A stretch of DNA of 64,000 bases, taken from contig BPGO01000001.1 of assembly GCA_026003075.1 (NCBI GenBank), positions 62,001 to 126,000 on the forward strand. The letters are read 5' to 3'. The DNA is from Fimbriimonadales bacterium (GTDB taxonomy: Bacteria > Armatimonadota > Fimbriimonadia > Fimbriimonadales > GBS-DC). How positions within the stretch are numbered: position 1 is the first letter of the stretch; every line of letters begins with the position of its first letter. The notes under the pieces were generated by a model. It saw only the letters and a list, made by a program, of their open reading frames with translations, ran no database searches and was not told the DNA's origin. Both the position numbers and the translations under genes were made by a program. This document shows, piece after piece, positions 2,400 through 16,420 of this stretch.

Positions 2400-2405
2400 T
2401 ATAAT
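2400..2405 (+). promoter_or_regulatory. -10 element upstream of SARP-type regulator
   Basis: A perfect TATAAT sits 16 nt upstream of the ATG at 2422, and no purine-rich ribosome-binding site lies between them. It supports choosing 2422 as the start, because an ATG at 2278 would lie upstream of the transcript. No good -35 was found. The rest of 2205-2399 shows no gene or clear structure. Confidence 0.5.
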
Positions 2406-2421
2406 TGATTCGTTCTGCGAA

Positions 2422-5400
2422 ATGTCTTTATCCGATACTCGATGGTATTTTCAGCTATTCGGAGGGTTCGAGGCGCGTCTGGGCACGCTTCGGGTTAATC
2501 GTTTCCGCACAGCGAAGACGACTTCGCTGCTGGGCTACTTGATCACTCACCCGCCCCATCGATTTGCGCGGGAGGTGCTTGCTGATCTGTTCTGGGGCGA
2601 CATGGAACCCGAGCGCGCCCGCAATAACCTCAGTGTTGCGCTTCACTCCCTGCGCTACGTGCTGGACATTCCTGGTACCCCTTCAGTCATCGAGGCGGAT
2701 TCACGGTGGGTTGGTCTCAGAGCAGGCTCTTATCTGGCGGATGTGCAAGAATTCGAACAAGCAATCCAGCTTGCCCTCGCTACTTCGGATCCCGCGCAGC
2801 AGTACGAGCGCCTCGCTTTTGCAGTACGCCTGTATCAAGGTGATTTTTTGCCGGGTCTCTACGACTCTTGGGTCGTGGACAAAGCGGCTGAACTGCAAGC
2901 GGAATGCCTGAACGCGCTGAAACAATTAGCTCGGTTTGATGCAGCGCGTGGGAACACTGAAGCGGAACGGGCATGGCTCACGCATGCGGTGAGCCTCAAC
3001 CCGTTAGACTGTGATTTGTCGGCGCGTTTGATCGAACTGCACTTGCAGGCGCGTCAATATGAAACGGCAGCGCGTTTGAGTATCGCGTGGATGGAGCAGT
3101 ATCAGCGACTCACGGGCGAACCACCACCCCCGCGCATCGTTGCCCTCTCCGAAGAGGCGCAACGCGGACGCATAAACCACCCCCACGGTGCTGTCTCTCT
3201 CTCAGAAACGCGCCCCGACAAGCCCGCGCTTCTGCCCCAAAACTCGGAAAAACCCTCCGAAGTCTTCACAACGCCTCCTGCGCTCCCTGCGCTGCCACGC
3301 ACCCGATTCATCGGGCGCGAAGAGGAAACCGTACAGTTAATGCAACTGCTGACCGATTCCACGGTTCCCTGCGTTGTGATTACGGGGCTGGGCGGTATGG
3401 GCAAAACGCGGCTCGCGTTGGAAGTGGCGCACTGCATCGCCGCCTCCCAGCAAATGTGCGTCCACTGGATTTGTCTGTCCGCAATTACGCGCCCAGAGCA
3501 AATTGTCCCTATGATTGTGCAGACGCTGGGACTGGCAGCAACAAACCATTTAACTGAATCTCTACGCCGCTACAGTGCCCAGTATCGCCCGCTTCTGTTT
3601 CTGGACAACTTCGAGCATTTACTCCCCGACGGTGCGCTGATTGTGTCCGAACTATTGCGCACCGTTCCCGAGATGCGTCTTTGCATTACCTCACGCCTAC
3701 CGTTGCGTATTGAGAGTGAAACCCTCTTTCCACTCACACCGTTGCCCTGTCCCGACGACATGGATTGCCCTGCCCTGACTCTGTTTGTGGACAGGGTGCG
3801 TCAGGTCTGCTATGATTTTCGCCTGACGGAACAGAATCGCCGTCTGATCTTAGAACTCTGTCGTTATTTGGACAACATTCCACTTGCGTTGGAGCTGGCG
3901 GCGGCGCGGCTGAACACGCTCTCGCTGAAGCAGCTGCTGGAGCGCGTTCACAGTCGCCTCCAGTGGCTAAAGACACGACGAGGCGACATCAAGGTACGCC
4001 ACCGCGCGATGTTGAGCGTGTTGGAAGCCACGCTGGCTACTGTGCCCCCCGATACCCGAAGAGCATTTGCGCAGTTGGGTCTTTTGCCCGATGTTTGGGA
4101 CATCGAACTCGCGCAGGCAACGGTCGGCATGCCCCCAGAACGCTTCATGGAGGTTCTGGAGACCCTGCGGGAGGCAAGCCTTATCGAGCGCGTTAGCGAT
4201 GAGCCAGCGCGTTATCGCATGCTGGAAATCGTGCGGGAATACGCCCAGAGCTTGCTCAGCGATGCCCGTCGCCGTGCCACCGAGAAGCGCCTGAGCGCTT
4301 GGATGTTGCGTACCGCTCTACGCCGTGCGGAGGAGGCGTATACGCCACGCCTGACCGAATGGCTCAGTTTCTGGGACTCTTACCGTACACCGCTCCTGCA
4401 CACGCTGGACCTACTGGAGCGCACGGGGCAATACCACGAAGCTATCCGCCTTTTGCGTGCCGTCGAGCGCTACCTCTATCTGCGCCCCCTACACGACAAT
4501 CTCCTAAACCGCCTCCAACACTGGCTCGATAAGGGCAAGCTGTCGTCGCGCGATACAGCGGATTTGCGCCTGCTTCTGGCGCGCCTGCTGTTCCAGGAGA
4601 GAGAGGGGCGTCAGGTTATGTCCACCGTGAGGGAGTTGACCCAAGCGGAACAGCACGACAAACGGCGCGGCTGGGCGCTCTACTGGATTGTACAAGCGGC
4701 GTTAATCATGTGCGATAAGCCCACAGCTCTGCGCTACTGGAAACGACTCCGTCGCTTCTACCCGTGCCCAGAACAGCCAGAACTACACTATGCAATCCAT
4801 TACTTGTGGAGTTATCTGGAGCCGATAGAGAATATAATAGCATGGCGTGAGGAGGGCGTGCGCTTCGCACAGCAGTCGGGAGACCCTGTCTTACTGGGCA
4901 ACGCACTCGACGCGCTCATCGAACAGCTCATCCTGCATGGGGACTATACCCGTGCGCTTAGTTATCTGGACGAGATGCAACAACTCTTTGCCCAACTCAA
5001 CACGCCCCTGCACTTGAACGGAGCCATGCATTACCGCGCCTATTGCCTCTTGCAACAAGGCGAGTTAGCCCAAGCGCAGCAAATCCTGAACGACTGCGCT
5101 GAGCGAGAAAGCAGACTGGGACTGCCTAAACACATTACCGACTGGTTGCAGGCGTTATTGTGGCGGTGGGAGGGGCGTTGCGTGCAGGCGCAACAGCTTG
5201 CGCTCTCCCGAACGGCTGAATTTGAACTCCACCAGCGTTGGCATTTGGGCGCGATGATGTGGGAGATTGCAGCCCTGTGCGCCGCCGAAATGGGCAACCT
5301 GGATGTAGCTTTGCGTTACGCTGCGGAAGCCGTGCGCCTGCGTGAACACGAAGACGACCTCCCCCGAAAGCACTTCACGCGGACTCACTACGCCTACTTG

Positions 5401-5646
5401 CGCGCTCGCGCAGGCGACCCAAACGCCCTGCAGGAACTGCAAGAGTGTCTTCAGTTTTGGCGAACACTCCACTGGCGCCCATGGCAGGCGACGACCCTGC
5501 TCTACCTTGCCGAAACCTATGCGCAACACGGCGAAATTCCTCGCGCCCACGCGGCGGTAGAAGAGGCGATTCAACTCAACCAGTCCATGGGACGCGCTTT
5601 CGCACTCCAAAAATGTCAAATTCTGAAAAATTCGCTCCCGATCTGA
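2422..5646 (+). CDS. SARP/AfsR-like transcriptional regulator (BTAD, NB-ARC ATPase, TPR)
   Basis: The protein is 1074 residues from the ATG at 2422; an in-frame ATG at 2278 is less likely because the TATAAT at 2400-2405 lies downstream of it. Residues about 5-100 look like an OmpR-type winged helix (FQLFGGFEARLG, LADLFWGD, ALHSLRYVLD). Residues about 105-250 fit the bacterial transcriptional activation domain. An ATPase follows, with Walker A GLGGMGKT near residue 324 and Walker B LLFLDNFEH near 394. The C-terminal 500 residues are helical repeats of TPR type. AfsR-type SARPs bind direct heptamer repeats at promoters and activate transcription. The downstream promoter at 5651-5682 carries such repeats, so it probably controls the secreted-protein genes. 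Family identification is strong; the target is inferred. Confidence 0.85.
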   Translation: MSLSDTRWYFQLFGGFEARLGTLRVNRFRTAKTTSLLGYLITHPPHRFAREVLADLFWGDMEPERARNNLSVALHSLRYVLDIPGTPSVIEADSRWVGLRAGSYLADVQEFEQAIQLALATSDPAQQYERLAFAVRLYQGDFLPGLYDSWVVDKAAELQAECLNALKQLARFDAARGNTEAERAWLTHAVSLNPLDCDLSARLIELHLQARQYETAARLSIAWMEQYQRLTGEPPPPRIVALSEEAQRGRINHPHGAVSLSETRPDKPALLPQNSEKPSEVFTTPPALPALPRTRFIGREEETVQLMQLLTDSTVPCVVITGLGGMGKTRLALEVAHCIAASQQMCVHWICLSAITRPEQIVPMIVQTLGLAATNHLTESLRRYSAQYRPLLFLDNFEHLLPDGALIVSELLRTVPEMRLCITSRLPLRIESETLFPLTPLPCPDDMDCPALTLFVDRVRQVCYDFRLTEQNRRLILELCRYLDNIPLALELAAARLNTLSLKQLLERVHSRLQWLKTRRGDIKVRHRAMLSVLEATLATVPPDTRRAFAQLGLLPDVWDIELAQATVGMPPERFMEVLETLREASLIERVSDEPARYRMLEIVREYAQSLLSDARRRATEKRLSAWMLRTALRRAEEAYTPRLTEWLSFWDSYRTPLLHTLDLLERTGQYHEAIRLLRAVERYLYLRPLHDNLLNRLQHWLDKGKLSSRDTADLRLLLARLLFQEREGRQVMSTVRELTQAEQHDKRRGWALYWIVQAALIMCDKPTALRYWKRLRRFYPCPEQPELHYAIHYLWSYLEPIENIIAWREEGVRFAQQSGDPVLLGNALDALIEQLILHGDYTRALSYLDEMQQLFAQLNTPLHLNGAMHYRAYCLLQQGELAQAQQILNDCAERESRLGLPKHITDWLQALLWRWEGRCVQAQQLALSRTAEFELHQRWHLGAMMWEIAALCAAEMGNLDVALRYAAEAVRLREHEDDLPRKHFTRTHYAYLRARAGDPNALQELQECLQFWRTLHWRPWQATTLLYLAETYAQHGEIPRAHAAVEEAIQLNQSMGRAFALQKCQILKNSLPI

Positions 5647-5650
5647 GCAT

Positions 5651-5682
5651 GTAAGAGTCTCGTAAGACCTCATCTGTATAAT
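5651..5682 (+). promoter_or_regulatory. SARP-type promoter: two heptamers 11 bp apart, 8 bp upstream of TATAAT
   Basis: GTAAGAG at 5651-5657 and GTAAGAC at 5662-5668 are direct repeats with an 11-bp period. Exactly 8 bp separate the second repeat from a perfect TATAAT at 5677-5682. The repeats occupy the place of the -35 element, for which no consensus is seen. This is the geometry known for SARP operators. The ATG of the first secreted gene is at 5724 behind AAGGAGG. Confidence 0.7.
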
Positions 5683-5723
5683 GATTGTGTACGCTCCTGA
5701 CGGGCGTGCAAAGGAGGTTAACG

Positions 5724-7100
5724 ATGCGCAATCGGTTACAGACTTTCGGGCTTAGCGTGATTTTTGCGCTTTCGGCGATGAGCGGCGCCTTGGCGCAAGG
5801 CGTCTCGCAAGCGTTTACCTATCAGGGGTTCCTGCGTCAAGGAGGCGTGCCCCTGACCAACCCGTCCCAATCGATGACCTTTCGGATTTACGACGCGCTA
5901 ACCGGCGGAACGCTGTTGTGGAACTCCGGCGCGGTGACCGTCAATGTCAACAACGGGCTGTTTACTGTGCAGCTGAACGCGCCTGCCAGTGTGTGGAGCG
6001 GCGCGGAGCGGTATTTGGAGATCCAGGTCGGCGGCACGACGCTCTCGCCGCGTGTGCGTCTCACCCCAACCCCCTATGCGAACACCGCCACGCAGATAAA
6101 TATGTTCCAAAGCGGCGTCAGCAACCCCAACCGAATGGTGATTACCCACTCGCCTGATTACACCGACTGGGGCTTGCAGTACCGCGACAGCGACGATACC
6201 TTCCACTTTTTGGGGGGCGGCGCCTCGCAGGTGAGTATCAGCCTCGGCAGCGGACTGCTGACCGCCAAAGCGTTTCGGCTGCCTACGGGTGCAACAGCAG
6301 GGCATGTTCTCACCAGCGACGCCAGTGGCAACGCCAGCTGGCAAGCGTTACCTGCAGGTGCAAGCATTTGGGCAGTGAGCGGTGCGAACATCTATAACAC
6401 GAACACGGGGAAGGTCGGTATCGGCTCACCAACCGTAATGACCGCACAACTGAATGTCGTCGCCGATACCACTACCGGCAACGCTACTCTGCGCCTGCAC
6501 GAAACGGCTGCTGACTTCGCCCGACTGGAGTTCACCAACACGAACACCGCCCGTAAGTGGCACATTGCGGGGTTAATCGGCTCCACCCAGGCAGACGACC
6601 GTCTCAACTTCTGGAACAGCGCGGCGGGCGATATTATGAGCATTCGCGGCGACGGCACGGTGGCGGTGAAGGTGCTGGAAATCACGGGCGCGGACCTCGC
6701 CGAGAAGTTCCCCACCACCGACACTGTGGAACCTGGCATGGTCGTGGAGATTGACCCCGATCACCCCGGACACCTGCGCAAGGCGCGGGGCGCCTATAAC
6801 AAGCGCGTGGCGGGCGTGGTCGCCGGCGCGAATGGGCTGTCCAAAGGCATTATCTTGGGCAACCTCGAAGGCAGCGAGAGCCATACTCCCATCGCCATGA
6901 GCGGGCGCGTGTGGGTCTATGCCGATGCGACCGAGTGCGCGATTGAACCGGGCGATTTACTGACCACTGCGGACCGACCGGGTTATGCCATGGTGGCACG
7001 CGACAAGGCGCGTGCGCACGGCGCCATCCTCGGCAAAGCAATGACCCGTCTGGAAAAGGGCAAAACGGGCATGGTGCTGGTGCTGGTAAACCTGCAATAA
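5724..7100 (+). CDS. Secreted protein with C-terminal peptidase G2/chaperone-like domain
   Basis: The start at 5724 follows AAGGAGG (5711-5717); an in-frame codon at 5685 has no such site. The 458-residue protein has a signal peptide (LSVIFALSAMSGALAQG). Next comes a beta-rich region (FTYQGFLRQGGVPLTN, FRIYDALTGGTLLW) of a kind common in surface proteins of Planctomycetes, Armatimonadota and related phyla. The C-terminal ~140 residues (GADLAEKFPTTDTVEPGMVV, KRVAGVVAG, GILGNLEGSE, MSGRVWVYAD) resemble the self-cleaving intramolecular chaperone domain found at the end of phage tail spikes and bacterial surface proteins. That match is from memory and tentative. It is first in the SARP-box operon with the protease gene 12 nt downstream. 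Confidence 0.6.
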   Translation: MRNRLQTFGLSVIFALSAMSGALAQGVSQAFTYQGFLRQGGVPLTNPSQSMTFRIYDALTGGTLLWNSGAVTVNVNNGLFTVQLNAPASVWSGAERYLEIQVGGTTLSPRVRLTPTPYANTATQINMFQSGVSNPNRMVITHSPDYTDWGLQYRDSDDTFHFLGGGASQVSISLGSGLLTAKAFRLPTGATAGHVLTSDASGNASWQALPAGASIWAVSGANIYNTNTGKVGIGSPTVMTAQLNVVADTTTGNATLRLHETAADFARLEFTNTNTARKWHIAGLIGSTQADDRLNFWNSAAGDIMSIRGDGTVAVKVLEITGADLAEKFPTTDTVEPGMVVEIDPDHPGHLRKARGAYNKRVAGVVAGANGLSKGIILGNLEGSESHTPIAMSGRVWVYADATECAIEPGDLLTTADRPGYAMVARDKARAHGAILGKAMTRLEKGKTGMVLVLVNLQ

Positions 7101-7112
7101 GGAGGTGCAAGA

Positions 7113-8693
7113 ATGAAACGCTGCTGGCTTATAGGATGCTGTGTCTTGCTGATGGGTTTTGGAATGGCTCAAGAGGGCGACGCGCCGTTCTTGGACGGAG
7201 CCATGCGCCCTCCAGCGGAAGAAAGTGTCCGCGCCAAGCCCCCGAAGTTGGTGGCGCCCCAGGCGAAACCCACGCAGATTACCCTGCCACCTACCCAGAT
7301 CCCTTACCGGGGCAATGGCTCAGATGGCGACAGTACTGCACAACCGAGACTGGTCGTGGGCTACTCCATCGATGCACCTCCGAACCTAATTGCCCGTGCC
7401 CAGTGGCAGCGCGTGCAAGGCGGAGGACAGTCTGTAGCAGGCTGGGTCGCGCATGTGCAGCTTCGCTCCCAAAACGCCGTCGGGCTGCGCCTGCAGCTGC
7501 AAGGACGCTCCCACCCCGACATTCAGATCAATATCTACGACCCGAATGGCGAGACCGTTCTGCCCGCTCGTGCGTACCCCGACGAGGAGGAGAAATGGTG
7601 GGCGCCTACCCTATGGTACAGCGACACCATAGGGATTGAAGTGTTTGTGCCCGATGGCGTCGACGCCCAGCGTGTACCTGAGATCGTCGCCGTCGGCTGC
7701 ATGTACACGGGCATTGAACCTGACTTCACCCCCGCCGAACTGGGCTGTCATCTGGATGTAACCTGCTACCCGGCTTATAACGATATTAAGCGAGGCGTAG
7801 CACGAATCCTGTATCCCGAAGGAAGCGGCTGGTTCCTCTGTACGGGGCAATTGCTCAATCGGACGAACACAGACTTTTCCCCAATCTTTATGACCGCCCA
7901 GCACTGCATCAGCATGCAGGCGTCGGCTCACGGGATGGAAGCCTACTGGTTTTACCAGACCGCAACCTGCAACGGGACCCCACCCAGTCTCAACTCAGTG
8001 CCGCGCACTATCGGGGCGCTGCTACTCAAACAACATGCAGACTCGGACTGGACGCTGCTGGGGCTGTATGAGCCGCCCGCAGGGAACTATTACTTCGGCT
8101 GGGATACAAATAGCTGGGCATCGGGCAGCAGCGGCAGCGCAGTGCATCATCCTGGTGGAACATTCAAGCGAATCACTTTCTTTACCACCGACGGTACCTG
8201 GGGCGGTTGCGGGCGCAGCCTGTGGTCGTCCCAAGTGTCTTTAGGAAATGGTACTATCGAAGGTGGTTCTTCGGGTTCAGCAGGACTGGATAGCGCGTTT
8301 CGGGTGCGAGGCAGTTGCTCCTGTGCCGAGACTGCAGGGAACGACGCGAATGGTAACCCCATTTGGAAATGTCCTACCAGCGGCGACCCTGTGTGGGTTG
8401 GCTGGGGGCGAATGGATCTGGCATTCCCGACTATCCGCTGGTACATCTTTGAGATGGCGAACCCGACCTTTGTGAACCGTGCGGTGGCGGGCGACCCTAA
8501 TAATGCAGGCGACAGCGAGCGCGGCGCTTCAGCCAATCCGTTCAACACGGTCTACGAGGGCACTTTCTGCGTGCCGACGGGCGGCACGGTGCGCATTGTG
8601 CCCGGCAACTACAACGAGCGATTCCGCGTGTGGCGTGCGATGCGACTGGAACGCAGCGGCACCTCGGGCGTCGTGGTCATCGGTAGACCCTAA
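7113..8693 (+). CDS. Secreted trypsin-like serine endopeptidase (lysyl endopeptidase-like)
   Basis: A 526-residue protein with a signal peptide (LIGCCVLLMGFGMAQ) and a Pro-rich linker. An N-terminal beta domain (residues about 80-190) comes before the protease. The catalytic triad can be read as His264 in MTAQHC, Asp312 in ADSDWTLL and Ser387 in EGGSSGSAG. Order and spacing fit chymotrypsin-fold enzymes, and the Cys-rich CxGQLLNR...TAQHC pattern resembles Achromobacter lysyl endopeptidase. The C-terminal ~90 residues form another small domain. It probably acts outside the cell as a protein-degrading enzyme. GGAGGTG lies before the ATG, and only 12 nt separate it from the gene upstream, so it belongs to the SARP-box operon. 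Confidence 0.8.
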   Translation: MKRCWLIGCCVLLMGFGMAQEGDAPFLDGAMRPPAEESVRAKPPKLVAPQAKPTQITLPPTQIPYRGNGSDGDSTAQPRLVVGYSIDAPPNLIARAQWQRVQGGGQSVAGWVAHVQLRSQNAVGLRLQLQGRSHPDIQINIYDPNGETVLPARAYPDEEEKWWAPTLWYSDTIGIEVFVPDGVDAQRVPEIVAVGCMYTGIEPDFTPAELGCHLDVTCYPAYNDIKRGVARILYPEGSGWFLCTGQLLNRTNTDFSPIFMTAQHCISMQASAHGMEAYWFYQTATCNGTPPSLNSVPRTIGALLLKQHADSDWTLLGLYEPPAGNYYFGWDTNSWASGSSGSAVHHPGGTFKRITFFTTDGTWGGCGRSLWSSQVSLGNGTIEGGSSGSAGLDSAFRVRGSCSCAETAGNDANGNPIWKCPTSGDPVWVGWGRMDLAFPTIRWYIFEMANPTFVNRAVAGDPNNAGDSERGASANPFNTVYEGTFCVPTGGTVRIVPGNYNERFRVWRAMRLERSGTSGVVVIGRP

Positions 8694-8703
8694 AACTCGC
8701 CAC

Positions 8704-8733
8704 GCTGAGAGGCAAAATTATTTGCCTCTCGGC
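8704..8733 (+). promoter_or_regulatory. RNA hairpin between protease and dockerin genes
   Basis: GAGAGGCAAA (8707-8716) pairs with TTTGCCTCTC (8721-8730) around an ATTA loop, and the stem can extend to 8704/8733. No U-tract follows, so it is not a standard terminator. TTGCC (8722-8726) can instead pair with GGCAA (8731-8735), giving a competing hairpin just before the AAGGAGG at 8748. Confidence 0.6.
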
Positions 8734-8762
8734 AAACTACATTCAGTAAGGAGGCATTTGTG

Positions 8763-9182
8763 ATGAAAACACTCTTGAAGTGTCTGAACCTCTCGGCAGC
8801 CTTGCTGCTGAGCCTACTGTGCGCCAACGCCCAATCGGGCGGTGGGTATGACCTAACTTGGTGGACAATCGACGGGGGCGGCATCACTTTCGCGACAGGC
8901 GGGAGTTTTGAACTCGGCGGCACGATTGGTCAGCCTGACGCCACCTCACTCAACGAACTCGCGGGCGGCGCGTTCCGTATGACGGGCGGCTTCTGGTTCG
9001 TGTCGTGCCTTATTACCAACGGCGATGTGGACGGCAACGGTTGCGTAGATGATGCCGACCTGTTGCAGGTGCTGTTCAACTTCGGCGCGACGGGCTTCAA
9101 CCTCGCCGATGTGAACTGCGACGCAATCGTCGACGACGCCGACCTGCTGACCGTGCTGTTCAACTTCGGTAGCGGGTGTTAA
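8763..9182 (+). CDS. Small secreted protein with two dockerin type I repeats
   Basis: The ATG at 8763 is 8 nt after AAGGAGG; a GTG at 8760 is in frame but too close. The 139-residue protein has a signal peptide (LLLSLLCANAQ), a short beta-rich region (GGSFELGGTIGQPDA, AFRMTGGFW) and a C-terminal dockerin-like pair. Those repeats, GDVDGNGCVDDADLLQVLFN and VNCDAIVDDADLLTVLFN, carry the Asp/Asn pattern of Ca-binding F-hand loops. Dockerins bind cohesins in cellulosomes, but in Planctomycetes and Armatimonadota they often occur alone on secreted proteins. It is the last gene of the SARP-box group, 69 nt after the protease with a hairpin between, and is followed by a terminator-like stem. Confidence 0.8.
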   Translation: MKTLLKCLNLSAALLLSLLCANAQSGGGYDLTWWTIDGGGITFATGGSFELGGTIGQPDATSLNELAGGAFRMTGGFWFVSCLITNGDVDGNGCVDDADLLQVLFNFGATGFNLADVNCDAIVDDADLLTVLFNFGSGC

Positions 9183-9190
9183 GGGATAAT

Positions 9191-9228
9191 GGCTCGGAAG
9201 GGATTACTACTATGCTTCCTTCCGAGCC
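9191..9228. terminator. Bidirectional terminator-like hairpin between convergent genes
   Basis: A 12-bp perfect stem, GGCTCGGAAGGA (9191-9202) with TCCTTCCGAGCC (9217-9228), has a 14-nt loop. It lies exactly between the convergent dockerin and lipoprotein genes. The U-tract is weak on both sides. Confidence 0.65.
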
Positions 9229-9240
9229 TTACAGCGCGGC

Positions 9241-9600
9241 TTAGAACGGCGGCGTCGGGGGCGGTGCGGTAATATTGCCCGTTTCACGAGTGTTGCCTGC
9301 GCGATCTTGGGCACGGATACGCACGCGCACCGTGTTCGCGGGCAGAGTCGCCTGATACTGGTGGTTGCCCTCGGCTTGCATGGCGATGGTCTGCTCGGTT
9401 GTGCCCACCGTCGCCAGCACGACGACGCTTGCCACGCCCGTCTCGGCGTCTTGCACGGTAGCGCGGGCGCGTACGCCATTGCCAGTATGTTCGAGCGCGA
9501 TGTTGCTAATCGCGGGCGGGACTGTGTCGGGGGGTAGCCCGCCCCCCCCACAGCCCGTGAGCAATACTGCGAGACTCCCAATCAGCCATTGGCGTCGCAT
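9241..9600 (-). CDS. Small lipoprotein with Ig-like repeat
   Basis: The ATG at 9600 is preceded on the minus strand by GGAGGT, 5 nt upstream. The 119-residue product starts MRRQWLIGSLAVLLTGCGGG with a clear lipobox (LTGC), so it should be lipid-anchored after signal peptidase II cleavage. The rest (PPAISNIALEHTGNGVRARA, VRIRAQDRAGNTRETG) looks like a single Ig/fibronectin-like beta domain, similar in wording to the DxxSGV and DRVGN segments of the giant protein upstream. It lies 11 nt downstream of that gene and is probably cotranscribed. Function unknown. Confidence 0.75.
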   Translation of the reverse strand: MRRQWLIGSLAVLLTGCGGGGLPPDTVPPAISNIALEHTGNGVRARATVQDAETGVASVVVLATVGTTEQTIAMQAEGNHQYQATLPANTVRVRIRAQDRAGNTRETGNITAPPPTPPF

Positions 9601-9611
9601 GGGTGACCTCC

Positions 9612-12600
9612 TTAGCGCGTGAGTGTAATCGGCGCGACCGCACGCACGATTTGACCGTCGTCTGTTTCCGCTTGAATCACGATTTGGTAGTTGCCTGGGG
9701 GCATGGCGCGTCCGTGCGCATCGCGCCCGTCCCATACCACCTGCTGCACGCCCCGATTGCGGCTGCGCCCTTGCTCCAGCGTGCGCACTGCCTGACCACC
9801 TACCTGCACGGTCACGCTGACGCGCGCGCTGTCCGACAAGGTGAACTGCACCGTATACTGATGCGTGCTGCGATTTGATTGCACCTGCACGCCCATGATT
9901 CGCACCAAGCGGCTGGTGTTGATGAGGCTGATCTCGTAGGTGCGGGTCAACCCCTCGGAGGGCACAGGGATTTGCCAACCTGTACTGTTGCGCAAGAAGC
10001 GGCGTTCACCTGTCTGAGTGTCGCGCAGCACAGGGTTCACGCCGCGCGGCAGGCGTGCCAAGTCGGGCGCGGTGATCAGCAGCGTGCGGGTACGCTCGTC
10101 GCTACTGGGGGGGACGTGCACCTCTAATGTCCAGCTCGGTGCGCGACGCGCGCGGGGCTGGATATCCGCCTCCATTGCTGTACCGTCGCGTGTCAGGCGC
10201 AATCGCACACCGCTATACGCGCTCCGTGTGGGCGGGTCTGGCGGGGCAACGACTTGCAGCCCATGCTCATTCCCCGAAACGCCCAGCAGCACCTCATCGT
10301 ACTGGTCGCCCAAGTGCGCAGCGATACGGAAACTCCAGCCACCATTCCGCTCCGTGGTGTAGCGGCGCGTTAGCCCTGTAAAGAGCGCCGCTTCCTCGGG
10401 TGTGGGCAGCTCCAGGGTGCATGCTTGGTGGGCGTAAATCCAGTAGCCCTGCCACGGTTGCAACGCGGTCTGCATACCAGGGAGAAGTTGCGCATCGGAG
10501 ACCAGCACATAGCGTCCTTGCGTGGGGTTGCTGGGGTTCGGCTCCCAGCCCCACAGGTAGGGTTCGACGAATTCACCGGCTTGGCTCAAGGGGCGTGCAA
10601 CGCCTTGCACCCGTACCTGCACCGCTTCGCGATGCCACACGAGCGGCTCCGTCCACGGGTTCGCAATCAGGTTCCAGCCGGGTTGCAAGTCAATTAGGTA
10701 GTGCGATTCAGGGTCCGGCAGCGTGCCGACAAGGTTCGGCTGGACGGCGTTCGGCAGCGCCACCCAAATCCCGCGTCCGGGCACAGGCGCAGCGCCCGCG
10801 TCGGGATATTGCACATACTGCCCCGTGACAGGGTTATAGGTTGCCCACTGGTTGTTTTGGAACCCGAACAGCGATTGCGGGTTGTTCGCATCAGGCAACA
10901 CGGGAATCCCGATGAGGTGCAAGCCTGCGCGGAACTGCGGCGGTTGCCCCATGCGAATGGCGGCGACGGGTTCTGTTTGTAGCGAGTTGGCATTGCCCAC
11001 GCGGTCGCGCGAGCGGGCAAACAGACGCGTTTCCTCGCCGAACCGTCGGGCACGGATGAGTACCTCGCCGTTTTCCGTGCGCGCGCCTGCCGCACGGGTG
11101 AATCCGATACGGCGCGTGTTCTCGCCCTCCTGTGCCCAAATCTCCACCTCCTCGACGCCAGAGGCATCGTCGGAGGCGCTCCAACGCAAGCGCGCTTTCG
11201 TCTCGGGGACAGCACTGGCAGGCACTTCGACCACCACCTGCGGCGGCTGCCCATCCAGCGTGATGGTGTGGGTGTTGGTCACGATGGGCGGATTCGCCTG
11301 CAGGTGCGGGTCAAAAGTAATTACTGCCTGATTGTTGACCACCGTGCCAGACGCCACATTACTGCGCGGGCGAATTTGGAACACTACTTTGCCCTCGCCC
11401 TGCGGCGGAGTCTGGTTCGGTGGGAGGAAGCCCTCCGCATAATAACTGTTCGTCCTGGGGTCAATACCGCTGAGTCGGACACTGAGCTTGCGCGTCGCTG
11501 AATCGTAGTTGCTGGTGACCCGCACAACCACGGGCAACTGCGGACTCAGGTCAATCGTGTGGTTGAGCGTGGTGGTGTTCTCGGGCAGGGTCAAGCGTTG
11601 AGACCCCACCTGAACCCACAGAAACTGCAGGGTCGATTCGTCCAGCGATTCGGGCAGTGTGTCCTCAAGAAGCACTTCCTGCGCTCCTGCCGTTGCCGTC
11701 GCTAAGTTTTCGAACAGCAGTTCGTAGACGATCGTACTATCCGTGCGCACATACCCATCGATTCCAACGCTGCCACGCTTCTCGTTGGGATCCCACGAGT
11801 TTCGGACGCGCCGTGGGGCAGGAGGCTCCAGGCGATCAAAAAGACGGTCCGCAGCGCGCGCCAAGCTCAAACATCTCGACGCGGTATTGAGGAAGGTAGA
11901 CAACCCTACATTCAGGATAATGCCATAAGTGTTCGGCAAGTAGTTTGCGAGATCGATGCCGTCTGGTGGCTCGAGTACATTTTCGTTGAAGGCATACTGA
12001 AGCAGCAGCCCATTGAGTTCGTTAACTGCGTTTTGATAAGTTGCTGCGACACTGTTCGGATCGGACGCCTCACCGATTTGCTTGTAGCCTTCATACGCGC
12101 GTACGAACGCATCGGCGAGCGGGTCAATCATCTCTTCGGGGATGTTGTAGCGGTTGAGCTTTTTCCTCAACACGCGTGTGCCAACATCCTTAGCTGCCTG
12201 TTGCAAAGCACTTCCGCCGGCGCTCAGTGCCTCCTGTCCAATAGAGGTCAGCATGTACTCAAAGATACTCTTGCGATCCATCGTGTACAAATCCATCAGG
12301 CGTCGCACATTGTCGCGGTCAAGGAGCCAGTCTGCCCACGCCCCCGCTTGACTTACCCCTGCAGAATCAAGAGCGTCCATAACAGCCCCCGTCAATTGGA
12401 GGTTGTAGCTGCTGAAAAAGTCGCATCCTGCCTGAAGCACATAGGAGCCAACAGCAAGGATTGTCGCTGCCCCAAGAACTACGACTATTGGGGCGACTCT
12501 CGATCGCGAGTCGCGTAGAACGGGCGTTTCGATGGAAGTGCGCCCGCGTGCAACAAAACGCACATACACATCTACATAACGCACCGCAAAGGGAGGTATC

Positions 12601-15600
12601 GGCGAGAGCTGGGCAATCAACAAGGTGTTTTCGGGGGTCAGCTCGCGACGCCCGCTGCTAATCACACGGCGGTTCGCCCAAGAGGTGTACTCCTCGATGC
12701 GATACTCCATATCCCACAGTCCCGAATCAATATCTTGCTCACTGACAGGAACTGTAAAGACAAGCACAGGCGCCTCGGGTAGCGCGCCTGTGCTGATTCT
12801 GAAAGTGAAGGTATCGCCTGCCCCCGCACGGAAGAAGGAAGGAACCGACCAGAGCGCGAGTTCAATCTTGGGGACACCAATCGGGTGATAGTCATAAGCT
12901 GTAGCCGTCTCGGTATAGGGCGAGTAGACCTCATAACGCATATAAGCGGTATCGCGCAGGTGGTCGGCGAAGCGGAAGCGTGCCTTGATCTCAGTGCCTT
13001 GCTCGTTGACTTGCACCTCGTCTGCTTCGATAACGCGCGTATCCACGACGCTCTGCTCATCGTTAATCACCGCGCGTACGCGCATCACGGGGGCAAACGA
13101 ACTCCCCTGAATCGTAACGAGGTGCGACTCTTGCCACGACAGTCTCGATGTAAGAGACAAGGAGTTTATCTGAGGTCGCCCGCGCGTAATCTGCACGGCG
13201 TTTTCAATACGCGCAACCTGAGTCTCGCTATAGCGTACCTCTGCTGTCCAGTCGCCGAGATCCTCCAGACGAATGGGGAACTGGGCTTCTATCTGCGTGA
13301 CGCCCACCAGCCATCCATCTGGGGTGCGCGAAAGTCTGCTCGGTTCGATGACGCGATCGCCCTGACGCAAAACCACCGTTACCGCAGGGGAGTCGTTCGT
13401 GACTTGGAGATAGAGCCGCACGGGACTTGTGAGGTTGTTTTGTTGAATGGGATAGTTGATCCGTGCAGCATAGGGGCGGTAGAGGGTCAACAGCGCATCG
13501 TCACGCCGTCCCATGTGATTAATATACACTCTCCCCGTATCGGCGAAGTTGCTGGGCAGGGCGCCTTCCGCCGGGAAGGTCAAACGCCACCGTCGATTGC
13601 CTAGCGGCTGCACTTGTGAAGGCGCAATACGATGCTCTTGCCCACCCCGCAGCGTCACGCGATATTCTGCACGCAGCGGCTCGGAGTCGAGGGCATTGGT
13701 CACCTCGACTTCCACCGTGAAGTTAGGGGTATCCTGTGTCAGCTCCAGTGAGCGTACATTTGCCGACACATCAATTGCTGGGAACTGCAGGACCCAGTTC
13801 ACCAAGTTGCTCGTCTGCTGGTTCGGGTTGCGTACCTGCAGGCGGGCAGTCAGCGTGTCGCTGTTGCTCTCTATCTGCTGATAGGGTGCTAAGTTGAAGG
13901 TGGCGCGGATCTGGGTTTGAGACAGATACTCGACACTGGTGGCGTTGAGGGGGTCTACCGAGACGCTCGTGGGAGGCAGCAAGGTGACCTGAGCGCCGGG
14001 CACAAACAGGCTCCCTGTAATCGTCACCGTGAAAGTGGACAGCGGGCGTGCGCCTCCGGGCGACACCGTGGCGATGTTGGGAACCGCTTCCACGATACTG
14101 AAGCCGTTCGCCAAACGCGCCTCCGAGTTGTTCGGTAAGCGCACCACCACATCCCACTGCGTGCCCACAGGTTCGCCGTTGAACTGGAAGGTAGCGTTAA
14201 GGCGCGTAGCACTGACGAACTCCACATCCGTCGCAAGAATTTGCATGCTACCGCGCTCTAAGCGCACCGTTGCCCCAGGCTCAAACCCTGCCCCCGTAAT
14301 CGCGACGCGTAAACTCCCTTGGTTTGCGCCCTGGGCAGGGGTAAGTCCCGAAACGGAAAGCGTCGGCCCCCCGAAGAGCGTATTGCGGTACAGCACCAAT
14401 CCCTCTTCACGCCCCGCGCCCAACACCTGCTCGCCATTGAAACTGAGCCGATACATACGGCGATTCAGGGTCATTGCCACAGGATTCAGGGTCGGGAAAT
14501 CAGATACGCGGAACAGAAAGACCTTACGATTGTTCCCATCGTAGGCGTAGAACACATTCACTGCAGGGTCATATCCCAGTTGCACCATGGAAACACCGCT
14601 GAGTGAATAGGTAGCTACAACCTGCGGGTTGGTGCGTACCCGTGCGTCCACCAAAGCGAGATTGCCTTGCCAGTCGGTCGTGAGTACATAACCGCCGCCA
14701 GCCGCAACATCACTGATGAACTGCGACTGAGGCAAATCCACACTGGCAAGTTGAACGGGGTTGTTAGGGTCGGTCAGATCATACACGCGTAGCGAGCGCG
14801 GGGTTGCACTAACAGCAAGGTAAAGCGTGTTCTCCTCGAGGTCAAAATTTTTCGTGGCGGGGGAGATGCTCCCAGCGCGTTGGGGCGCGGTAGGGTTCGA
14901 AATATCGTATATCTGGATCTGGTTCTGTCGGGTCGCCATCGCTAAAAAAGCGGCGCTGCCGAGTCGGATACGATCGCTGAAGCCCGGCGACGAAAAACCG
15001 CCCGGATCGTCCTGAAAGAGGAGGTTCAACGAGTTGCCTACTTGTTCGTAGAGATGCAGTACGCCGTTGATAGCCACCGCCACGCGCCCACTGCCGATGA
15101 GCGCTAAATCGGTACCCGAGGTGCGCTGCAACGGCAAGAACGCTGTGCCGCGTACTGTGGGCATAGAAGGGTTCGTGATGTCCAGCGCGGTCAATCGCTG
15201 CTCTTCGGCATAGAAAACGGTAGTGCCTTGCTGCACCACCGCCAGCGGGTAGGGATACGTCACAATGTTCGTTCCCTGAGTCGCGGGGTGATACAGTGCC
15301 AAGATAGACTGTCCTTGAATCAACACCTTGCCTGACAGGGGGTCGGCGTTTTGGACATCGCTATAGGTCAGCACGCGCACCGAAGTAGGAGCGGAGGGCG
15401 TACTCACATCCACCACATCCGTACCGCGCTCATAGCCCGACAGAAAGACGAAATTCCCCACGGCTGCCAGCCCTGACACACGCTCGGTGGCGTAGGCGCC
15501 CACTTGCGTGGGAGAGTCGGGGTTGGTTAAGTCAAAAATATAGAGTTGGAGGGGGGGATTACTGGTTTTGAGCGCGTAAAGCTTACCCCCGGAGACGGTG

Positions 15601-16271
15601 ACGCGGCGTACATTCGTGCCCGCGCCTACCGAGCCGATTCGGGTCGGGTTGTCCGGTTGGCTAATATCCCATACCCCAATCCCGTTCGCCGGCTCTGCTG
15701 TGTAAAGGCGGTTGCCAACGACCACTCCCCCCGCAGCGGTCGCGTTCACTAAACGCACCTGCGTGGGATTGGCTGGATTAGAAACATTCACCACAGCGAA
15801 GTTCCCCTCGTAGGGAAACAGGTAGAGGAAGTTGCCCGATTTCGCGAAGTTGAGATAAAACGGGTCGGTGCTGGGGAATGCTAATTCGCCTGCGAGTTGC
15901 GGCATGTCGGGGTCCGACACATCGACCACTGCCAGGCGGACATTATCGCTCGGACCGCTCGTGGCTACATACAGCACATAGGCATAGTTGCCCTCCACCA
16001 GGATGCTAATTCCTTGCCTTGGGGTATTGCCGGGATAGTTCAAGCGTCCCCGCAGTGTCGGGGATGCGCCACTGAAATCGTAAATCGCCAGCATCACCTC
16101 GCTGCTGGTCACCACATAGACGCGATTATTGTAGGCATACGAGGTACTGTAAGAGCGCACTTCTCCGCGTGCCAAGATACGGTCTTCTACTAACTGCGCC
16201 CAACTTGGCGCACCAATACCTAACGCCCAGATGATGAGTGTCCACCACCAGAAAGCCTTTCGGTATTGCAT
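9612..16271 (-). CDS. Giant secreted multidomain surface protein (propeller, IPT/TIG, FlgD-like Ig)
   Basis: 2219 residues from an ATG at 16271 that is preceded by GGAGGT; a start at 16295 lacks a site. A signal peptide (WWWTLIIWALGIGAPSWAQ) is followed by ~600 residues of LVIVD-type propeller repeats (GNYAYVLY, VVDVSDPDMPQLAG, NFLYLFPYEGN). Two IPT/TIG domains come next (LTPAQGANQGSLRVAITGAG; VSPGGARPLSTFTVTITGS), then further beta domains. One hydrophobic segment (VVVLGAATILAVGSYVLQAG) lies near the middle. After a helical region comes the SWDPNEKRGSVG / VYELLFENLATAT block of large bacterial surface proteins. The C-terminus has a FlgD-like Ig domain (VVWDGRDAHGRAMPPGNYQI). Probably a cell-surface or secreted adhesion/scaffold protein; no enzyme motif was found. 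Confidence 0.75.
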   Translation of the reverse strand: MQYRKAFWWWTLIIWALGIGAPSWAQLVEDRILARGEVRSYSTSYAYNNRVYVVTSSEVMLAIYDFSGASPTLRGRLNYPGNTPRQGISILVEGNYAYVLYVATSGPSDNVRLAVVDVSDPDMPQLAGELAFPSTDPFYLNFAKSGNFLYLFPYEGNFAVVNVSNPANPTQVRLVNATAAGGVVVGNRLYTAEPANGIGVWDISQPDNPTRIGSVGAGTNVRRVTVSGGKLYALKTSNPPLQLYIFDLTNPDSPTQVGAYATERVSGLAAVGNFVFLSGYERGTDVVDVSTPSAPTSVRVLTYSDVQNADPLSGKVLIQGQSILALYHPATQGTNIVTYPYPLAVVQQGTTVFYAEEQRLTALDITNPSMPTVRGTAFLPLQRTSGTDLALIGSGRVAVAINGVLHLYEQVGNSLNLLFQDDPGGFSSPGFSDRIRLGSAAFLAMATRQNQIQIYDISNPTAPQRAGSISPATKNFDLEENTLYLAVSATPRSLRVYDLTDPNNPVQLASVDLPQSQFISDVAAGGGYVLTTDWQGNLALVDARVRTNPQVVATYSLSGVSMVQLGYDPAVNVFYAYDGNNRKVFLFRVSDFPTLNPVAMTLNRRMYRLSFNGEQVLGAGREEGLVLYRNTLFGGPTLSVSGLTPAQGANQGSLRVAITGAGFEPGATVRLERGSMQILATDVEFVSATRLNATFQFNGEPVGTQWDVVVRLPNNSEARLANGFSIVEAVPNIATVSPGGARPLSTFTVTITGSLFVPGAQVTLLPPTSVSVDPLNATSVEYLSQTQIRATFNLAPYQQIESNSDTLTARLQVRNPNQQTSNLVNWVLQFPAIDVSANVRSLELTQDTPNFTVEVEVTNALDSEPLRAEYRVTLRGGQEHRIAPSQVQPLGNRRWRLTFPAEGALPSNFADTGRVYINHMGRRDDALLTLYRPYAARINYPIQQNNLTSPVRLYLQVTNDSPAVTVVLRQGDRVIEPSRLSRTPDGWLVGVTQIEAQFPIRLEDLGDWTAEVRYSETQVARIENAVQITRGRPQINSLSLTSRLSWQESHLVTIQGSSFAPVMRVRAVINDEQSVVDTRVIEADEVQVNEQGTEIKARFRFADHLRDTAYMRYEVYSPYTETATAYDYHPIGVPKIELALWSVPSFFRAGAGDTFTFRISTGALPEAPVLVFTVPVSEQDIDSGLWDMEYRIEEYTSWANRRVISSGRRELTPENTLLIAQLSPIPPFAVRYVDVYVRFVARGRTSIETPVLRDSRSRVAPIVVVLGAATILAVGSYVLQAGCDFFSSYNLQLTGAVMDALDSAGVSQAGAWADWLLDRDNVRRLMDLYTMDRKSIFEYMLTSIGQEALSAGGSALQQAAKDVGTRVLRKKLNRYNIPEEMIDPLADAFVRAYEGYKQIGEASDPNSVAATYQNAVNELNGLLLQYAFNENVLEPPDGIDLANYLPNTYGIILNVGLSTFLNTASRCLSLARAADRLFDRLEPPAPRRVRNSWDPNEKRGSVGIDGYVRTDSTIVYELLFENLATATAGAQEVLLEDTLPESLDESTLQFLWVQVGSQRLTLPENTTTLNHTIDLSPQLPVVVRVTSNYDSATRKLSVRLSGIDPRTNSYYAEGFLPPNQTPPQGEGKVVFQIRPRSNVASGTVVNNQAVITFDPHLQANPPIVTNTHTITLDGQPPQVVVEVPASAVPETKARLRWSASDDASGVEEVEIWAQEGENTRRIGFTRAAGARTENGEVLIRARRFGEETRLFARSRDRVGNANSLQTEPVAAIRMGQPPQFRAGLHLIGIPVLPDANNPQSLFGFQNNQWATYNPVTGQYVQYPDAGAAPVPGRGIWVALPNAVQPNLVGTLPDPESHYLIDLQPGWNLIANPWTEPLVWHREAVQVRVQGVARPLSQAGEFVEPYLWGWEPNPSNPTQGRYVLVSDAQLLPGMQTALQPWQGYWIYAHQACTLELPTPEEAALFTGLTRRYTTERNGGWSFRIAAHLGDQYDEVLLGVSGNEHGLQVVAPPDPPTRSAYSGVRLRLTRDGTAMEADIQPRARRAPSWTLEVHVPPSSDERTRTLLITAPDLARLPRGVNPVLRDTQTGERRFLRNSTGWQIPVPSEGLTRTYEISLINTSRLVRIMGVQVQSNRSTHQYTVQFTLSDSARVSVTVQVGGQAVRTLEQGRSRNRGVQQVVWDGRDAHGRAMPPGNYQIVIQAETDDGQIVRAVAPITLTR

Positions 16272-16420
16272 GACTTCAATACCTCCGTGCTTCAAGTCCC
16301 GTGTGAAATATTACCCGATCTTCGGCTTGGATAGGAATCTATTTCCCCATTTTTAGGGGACTGACTGAGCCTTTGAACCATATGCTTCGGAGCGACTCAG
16401 CAGGAATCCGTCTATTGAAG

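Follow-up and report, generated by a model that had tools for sequence, protein, structure and literature searches.

A 64,000-nucleotide stretch of the genome of a Fimbriimonadales bacterium (Armatimonadota; GenBank assembly GCA_026003075.1, contig BPGO01000001.1, positions 62,001–126,000; hereafter the window) encodes a 1074-residue protein with the architecture of a large Streptomyces antibiotic regulatory protein (SARP). Our analysis indicates that this protein, at positions 2422–5646 of the + strand, is very probably an AfsR-like activator of the large SARP type, which would act on two GTAAGA(G/C) repeats just behind its gene and drive a secreted fibre-like module; the evidence comes from sequence, structural modeling and analogy. 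Comparisons with other genomes further support the view that the SARP-type activation scheme is not an actinobacterial speciality, as its layout and matching operators reappear next to dozens of related regulators from two phyla.

Paired heptamers at the -35 position behind the regulator gene

Behind the stop codon of the regulator (TGA, 5644–5646) lie two putative operator repeats, GTAAGAG (5651–5657) and GTAAGAC (5662–5668), which are identical at 6 of 7 positions and start 11 bp apart. An 8-bp spacer, CTCATCTG (5669–5676), separates the second repeat from a -10 hexamer, TATAAT (5677–5682), and an AGGAGG (5712–5717) precedes the ATG of the downstream gene at 5724, all on the + strand. No -35/-10 pair of the sigma-70 type was found in 5300–9600. 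By sequence, this arrangement has the attributes of a large-SARP operator, namely heptameric direct repeats with an 11-bp period that overlap the -35 region and stand before a -10. When the 77-bp intergenic region was shuffled, a repeat pair exactly 8 bp before TATAAT appeared in 5 of 400,000 trials (about 1 per 80,000). If the -10 may differ at one base, the 64-kb window contains the site at 5651 and two others, both on the - strand.

Without mismatch, GTAAGA-N5-GTAAGA has one copy in the host's own genome (G000). With two mismatches the same genome gave 53 matches against 84 in the reversed control, which is no excess, and a large regulon for this heptamer was rejected on that count. Because the exact pair is unique and the relaxed count lies below the control, the host genome shows a single strong GTAAGA site; for the same reasons the window by itself is insufficient to decide the matter.

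The regulator has the domains and predicted fold of a large SARP

The N-terminal half of the protein carries an OmpR-type winged helix-turn-helix (wHTH) DNA-binding domain at residues 30–91 (2509–2694), recognized by Pfam as Trans_reg_C with 27.3 bits (cut-off 26.2) in a scan of the N-terminal 270 residues and seen in the AlphaFold2 model; the wHTH itself starts at about residue 8. Its predicted recognition helix spans residues 63–81 (2608–2664) and includes S71, which is linked to specificity by the operator associations described below. Directly behind the wHTH is the bacterial transcriptional activator domain (BTAD) at residues 107–205 (2740–3036), with 33.6 bits (cut-off 22.1) in the same scan. 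The center and C-terminus match AAA_16/NB-ARC and then tetratricopeptide-repeat (TPR) families in Pfam, corresponding to a STAND ATPase with the Walker A motif GLGGMGKTR (3304–3684) and a TPR region (4930–5580), which is the layout of a large SARP of about 1000 residues. Pfam revealed no receiver domain, the mark of PhoB/OmpR response regulators, and no GerE/LuxR helix-turn-helix, the mark of LAL/MalT-type STAND proteins; a weak MalT-like TPR match is present.

The AlphaFold2 model of residues 1–264 has a predicted local distance difference test score of 93. AfsR and EmbR are the top matches of this model in the PDB (E 7e-9 to 1e-7, TM up to 0.68), and the BTAD fold in particular matches both. 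A sequence profile of the family, compared with the PDB, gave AfsR at 8.6e-25 over both domains, EmbR at 8.6e-18 and PhoB at 1.4e-4. This family profile was required, as a phmmer search of the PDB with the regulator N-terminus as a single sequence returned no match. The NCBIfam AfsR profile NF053617 also matches the regulator (E 4.4e-20), with 71.3 bits of a curated 1430 bits; an AfsR equivalog is thereby ruled out, and the protein is related to AfsR without being AfsR itself. By its architecture, modeled fold and putative operator, the regulator is predicted to work like a large SARP.

Two features of the regulator locus were noted in passing. A TATAAT lies about 15–30 bp upstream of the start codon of the regulator (window 2400–2422) and of orthologues at loci L009, L011, L012, L014 and L015, and this short distance suggests that their transcripts are leaderless or nearly so. 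In L009, L011 and L015 an ABC-transporter ATPase gene, LptB-like by eye, directly precedes the regulator gene.

Operator and regulator occur together in relatives

Orthologues of the regulator, with identities from 63% down to 36%, came from a search of 60 relatives; a contig scan with one sequence as query found no relatives, and a query built from an alignment found them. Downstream of many of these orthologues the box recurs in the forms GTAAGAGtctcGCAAGAC, TTAAGAGtccgTTAAGAC, TTAAGACtctcGTAAGAC and TTAAGACttttGTAAGAC, each about 8–9 bp ahead of a -10 and 50–75 bp ahead of a gene for a secreted protein. Behind orthologous regulators of 63–41% identity, it is mainly the repeats and the -10 in which the operator is conserved. 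Down to regulator identities of 36–43%, the repeats are retained at their spacing from the -10, whereas the flanking bases are not. When 14 sites were aligned by their repeats, all 14 shared the TAAGA core in repeat 1, and in repeat 2 the core departed from it at a single base of a single site; farther upstream, bases are conserved at 35–70%.

For pattern searches we used a family set of 18 genomes, with reversed-pattern controls alongside. Counting variants, 18 box sites were found in 11 genomes, every one just before a member of one secreted protein family, and the reversed controls gave 0 sites in the 18 genomes. An earlier reading made from the window's letters only (the sequence-only reading) had placed GTAAGAG and GTAAGAC behind the 1074-residue regulator with an 11-bp period and 8 bp to TATAAT, all of it correct to the base, and had named failure of the repeats to persist in orthologous promoters as grounds for giving up the idea. 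In the orthologous promoters the repeats proved to be conserved, so that this ground for giving it up did not hold.

The box was present in 11 of the 11 genomes with the regulator and in 0 of the 7 without it (Fisher p 3e-5, relatedness ignored), where the former include G013, with a regulator 36% identical, and G008, with only an N-terminal piece at a contig end, and the latter include two genomes that are only two-thirds complete and three that lack the target family. Phylogenetic non-independence weakens this and all other p-values of the analysis. Several sites occur at loci other than that of the regulator gene (G016 C6, C9 and C18; G010 145440; G007 C87; G006 C31; G013 C123), amounting to three of four sites in G016 and one of two in G010.

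The same geometry stands beside other BTAD regulators

We scanned 300 bp on each side of other BTAD regulator genes for an exact 7-mer repeat followed 7–10 bp later by a -10-like hexamer, at periods of 7–40. Among 60 other regulators from Armatimonadota of the same order, period 11 occurred in 9 and every other period in 0–1. An independent profile search yielded 74 regulators, nearly all from Chloroflexota, of which 16 had the box at period 11 against 0–3 elsewhere, rising to 40 against 1–11 when 6/7 matches were allowed. Within the same loci, box density near the regulator was about 58-fold and 29-fold higher than far from it in the two regulator sets. The heptamers themselves vary among regulators (TTTCAGTG, CTTTTCG, CCTTACG, TGTGACG, TTGACG, TTGAAGCG, TTGGATC, TAAAGAG and others), and the box lies mostly before the gene downstream of the regulator in Armatimonadota and mostly before the divergent gene in Chloroflexota.

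The host genome itself provides a second instance. Its other full-length BTAD regulator (contig C8, 28430–31800; locus L086) has the reversed domain order, with the DNA-binding half C-terminal, and the gene downstream carries TTTTCAGTGgaTTTTCAGTG and then a -10; the box of this regulator has the form TTTCAGTG-N3-TTTCAGTG. This motif has 17 matches in 11 of the 18 family genomes and 0 in controls, and in two loci (G017 and G005) it forms three tandem 11-bp units. Most boxes of this type precede a conserved gene for a protein of about 210 residues, which by eye looks like an extracytoplasmic function (ECF)-type sigma region. A second variant of the box, with spacer TTT or GTT, was seen before other genes in G005, G010, G016 and G002.

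A further BTAD gene drew our attention for its neighbourhood: in locus L346, on a Streptomyces clavuligerus plasmid (CP065238.1, 80581–89162), a small BTAD regulator sits beside phage-tail-sheath and DUF4255 genes, a contractile-injection-like cluster and not an antibiotic cluster.

A suggested link between recognition-helix residues and operator bases

The recognition helices were aligned through the PDB profile alignment, in which W58 of the window protein equals W74 of AfsR and position 71 equals R87. Where position 71 is R or K, both repeats contain CG in 29 of 39 cases, against 2 of 15 otherwise (p 1e-4), the strongest association among 21 helix positions. Among regulators whose helix contains the motif LSV, the window protein included, 7 of 8 have AGA in both repeats, against 3 of 48 (p 4e-6); the LSV set includes one Chloroflexota locus, L263. 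These per-position tests ignore relatedness. The link between residue and base draws on chosen features and related sequences and is suggestive.

A pattern scan of 113 genomes for TTAAGA-type operators, which served as a small blind test of the link and succeeded, recovered the family sites, the known site in G050 and one new site in G108 (C82:16619). The new site is some 60 bp away from a BTAD regulator whose helix has the predicted LSV motif, and a secreted protein of 550 residues is encoded divergently. Since the regulators of G108 and G050 resemble orthologues of each other, we count one added case and not two.

The putative targets are secreted proteins

The gene behind the box (5724–7100, + strand) encodes the predicted target, a secreted fibre-like protein of 458 residues with a signal peptide that belongs to a multicopy family in relatives. 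Twelve bp behind it is a gene for a secreted trypsin-like protease (7113–8693, +), named from sequence, followed by one for a small dockerin-like secreted protein that contains two repeats of the DVxxDGxVDDADLL type (8763–9182, +); both are kept in the module. The full three-gene module stands behind the box in G007, G010, G011 and G012, and target and protease do so in G008. None of the target, the protease and the dockerin-like protein reached a Pfam family. Residues 19–84 of the target match Bdello_MAT_N, the N-terminal family of the mosaic adhesive trimer fibres of Bdellovibrio, weakly and below the cut-off (1.5e-4).

Other boxes in Armatimonadota precede further members of the fibre family (L019, L199, L200), a prepilin-like protein (L165) and proteins with signal peptides (L031, L037, L181). 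In Chloroflexota, the divergent gene often encodes a small protein of about 70 residues with no signal peptide and no Pfam match. The gene content behind the window promoter is as the sequence-only reading described it, a surface or secreted protein, a protease and a dockerin protein with no antibiotic cluster. Its proposal of secretome control fits this regulator and the majority of the other boxes in Armatimonadota, but is not the rule in Chloroflexota. Since the boxes stand before fibre-family, prepilin-like and signal-peptide proteins in Armatimonadota, secretome control is supported as a fair description for that phylum only, and given the small divergent Chloroflexota proteins we do not extend the statement there.

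Three observations concern these genes and their surroundings. The Chloroflexota protein of about 70 residues recurs, with the pattern YLLRLWQ...WRxSLEDPHTGERxGFADLxxLxxFL, as an unnamed divergent partner in L218, L219, L223, L235, L252, L258, L263, L270, L279, L282 and other loci. In G014 (C8 and C4; L318 and L319), two fibre-family members share a near-identical promoter segment, AATTTCGATTCCGAAAGTGCCAAACGC...GGACTATAAT, in tandem duplicate in L318; judged by these letters, the segment is another promoter module of the fibre-like gene family. In the window, the - strand at 9612–16295 adjoins the module and encodes a secreted-looking protein of 2227 residues, whose repeats resemble beta-propeller and Ig-like domains by eye.

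Proposed mechanism and alternatives

The closest model for the promoter is AfsR, of all large SARPs the one understood best. SARP domains of AfsR bind as a side-by-side dimer on two 11-nt repeats at -40 to -19 and contact T-38 and T-27; region 4 of sigma rests on top of the SARP dimer and not on a -35, and the NOD and TPR domains are inhibitory until ATP binds (PMC10936776). With TATAAT numbered -12 to -7, the starts of the window repeats fall at -38 and -27. This register and the fold match to AfsR and EmbR lead us to expect the same sigma-holding activation. Two protomers would sit side by side on the GTAAGA(G/C) direct repeats through their winged helices, with the repeats one helical turn apart at the usual -35 position. 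The bound BTAD dimer would then hold sigma region 4 and the C-terminal domain of the RNA polymerase alpha subunit, replacing the -35 contact, and, as in AfsR, transcription would start from the TATAAT 8 bp downstream. The NB-ARC/TPR half would restrain the activator domain until ATP, a signal or both are bound. The predicted output is the secreted fibre-like protein with the same-direction protease and dockerin-like genes and, in relatives, also unlinked members of the fibre family.

Several observations weigh against this account. We infer both binding and activation, from sequence and from the analogy with AfsR. The GTAAGA box occurs only once in the host's own genome. Most of the roughly 50 other target-family promoters that were checked lack a detectable period-11 box, and the notion that all fibre genes are under SARP control was rejected on this ground. 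The regulator orthologue of G016 (C23:238174–241401, L014) is interrupted by an in-frame TAG, although all four operators of that genome are intact; the TAG may be an error or a recent loss. Among the Armatimonadota paralogues the box is found in only 12 of 60, even at a 6/7 match. None of 13 plasmid-borne BTAD genes (from Proteobacteria, Cyanobacteria, Deinococcota, Actinomycetota and one from Chloroflexota) has a period-11 box, in a set that holds only two actinobacterial genes and hence no positive control. Universality of the grammar across BTAD genes is therefore not claimed, and we limit it to the Armatimonadota and Chloroflexota genome loci examined. Finally, a Mantel comparison of recognition helix with operator over all pairs gave a rho of 0.16, not different from that of NB-ARC; it is this weak global result, beside a clear per-position test, that makes us treat the residue–base link as suggestive.

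It is improbable that the regulator binds the repeats as a repressor, or at an autoregulatory site, and not as an activator. Many Chloroflexota boxes do lie between a divergent regulator and its partner gene, where one box could serve both. The window box, however, is not before the regulator's own gene; it stands upstream of a good -10 without any -35, and a SARP fold with BTAD predicts activation.

OmpR/PhoB-type response regulators bind 7-mer sites with an 11-bp period near the -35. An ordinary regulator of that type could thus read the repeats, the BTAD neighbour being coincidental, and the wHTH of the window protein itself resembles PhoB (1.4e-4). We regard this as very unlikely. Box and regulator co-occur in 11 of 11 genomes against 0 of 7, box density beside BTAD genes is 29–58 times that in the rest of the same loci, and the heptamers change between BTAD genes in a way that tracks the recognition helix of the BTAD protein itself. 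Moreover, the operator search turned up a BTAD gene and no response regulator.

A similarly slim chance attaches to the box being an inherited promoter of the fibre family, kept for RNA polymerase or for another purpose and spread by duplication or transfer of the module. Other BTAD regulators share the geometry, with neither box sequence nor target gene related, and among some 50 further members of the family most promoters are unrelated; at the sites that carry the box, flanks diverge and repeats stay. What speaks for inheritance is that all 18 sites precede one gene family, that the spacer bases TCTC are also conserved, and that the module moves between genera, as shown by the 77% identical target of G014. 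That genome, however, has the fibre–protease–dockerin module (target about 75–77% identical) and lacks the box and the close regulator alike. A chance repeat, which the single 6/7 repeat of the window and the uniqueness of the exact motif in the genome might allow, has a negligible probability against a shuffle frequency of about 1e-5, conservation in 11 genomes and a period-11 excess in two independent regulator sets.

With AfsR-like activation preferred, we think it somewhat more likely than not that BTAD regulators, at least those of Armatimonadota and Chloroflexota, form an activator class with a single, constant promoter grammar (11-bp repeats in two to three copies, 7–10 bp, then a -10), in which the heptamer is rewritten by changes in the recognition helix. 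If so, the control of antibiotics in Streptomyces would be one use of a wider scheme, which in Armatimonadota would run the display or secretion of fibre-like surface proteins, and sequence would suffice to predict the operators of hundreds of BTAD proteins not yet characterised. The paralogues combine a constant geometry with variable heptamers, which makes them a natural set for studying how BTAD proteins read DNA and would allow direct target prediction for regulators in mostly uncultured organisms.

Comparison with known SARP systems

A 2024 review describes SARPs as confined to actinobacteria and usually located inside antibiotic gene clusters (PMC10972967). The present host belongs to Fimbriimonadales of the Armatimonadota, and the neighbours of the regulator are secreted-protein genes. 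Actinobacterial confinement is a statement about distribution and not about mechanism; we therefore call the protein SARP-type and challenge the distribution claim, as SARP-type regulators with matching operators occur in Armatimonadota and Chloroflexota. SARP operator logic outside Actinobacteria, as put forward by the sequence-only reading, is supported and extends further than proposed, to other BTAD paralogues of Armatimonadota and, more often, to Chloroflexota. In the open-licence literature we found no paper on SARP with Armatimonadetes or on "bacterial transcriptional activator domain" with Chloroflexi, and nothing relevant for "SARP family" with "non-actinobacterial". Public records (e.g. 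of plasmids) already contain annotated BTAD proteins from outside actinobacteria, so the novelty lies in the operator grammar and the link to secreted proteins.

The SARP-LAL proteins (PimR, SanG, PolR) and the small SARPs (ActII-ORF4, DnrI, RedD) likewise use heptameric direct repeats with 4-bp spacers in two to three copies (PMC10972967, PMC5930380), and the three-copy operators of Streptomyces SARPs are paralleled by the boxes of the host's C8 BTAD regulator. These proteins are located in actinomycete antibiotic gene clusters, however, and the PimR operator does not overlap a -35. EmbR of Mycobacterium tuberculosis has the same wHTH–BTAD fold (2fez), but an FHA domain where the window regulator has NB-ARC/TPR. 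PhoB/OmpR response regulators share the wHTH type, whereas the window regulator has no receiver and instead has BTAD, NB-ARC and TPR.

The nearest relative in design is AfsR of Streptomyces coelicolor, a large SARP of about 1000 residues with the same N-terminal OmpR-type wHTH and BTAD followed by NB-ARC/NOD and TPR, and the best match by fold and by profile. Its operator likewise consists of two direct repeats with an 11-bp period that replace the -35, and the register of the window repeats to the -10 differs from that in the afs box by about 1 bp at most (PMC10936776). The two proteins differ in phylum and heptamer and share about 20% identity; by alignment, the base-contact residues R87, T88 and R92 of AfsR correspond to S71, V72 and S76 in the window regulator. 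AfsR targets afsS and antibiotic genes, whereas the predicted target of the window regulator is the secreted fibre–protease–dockerin module.

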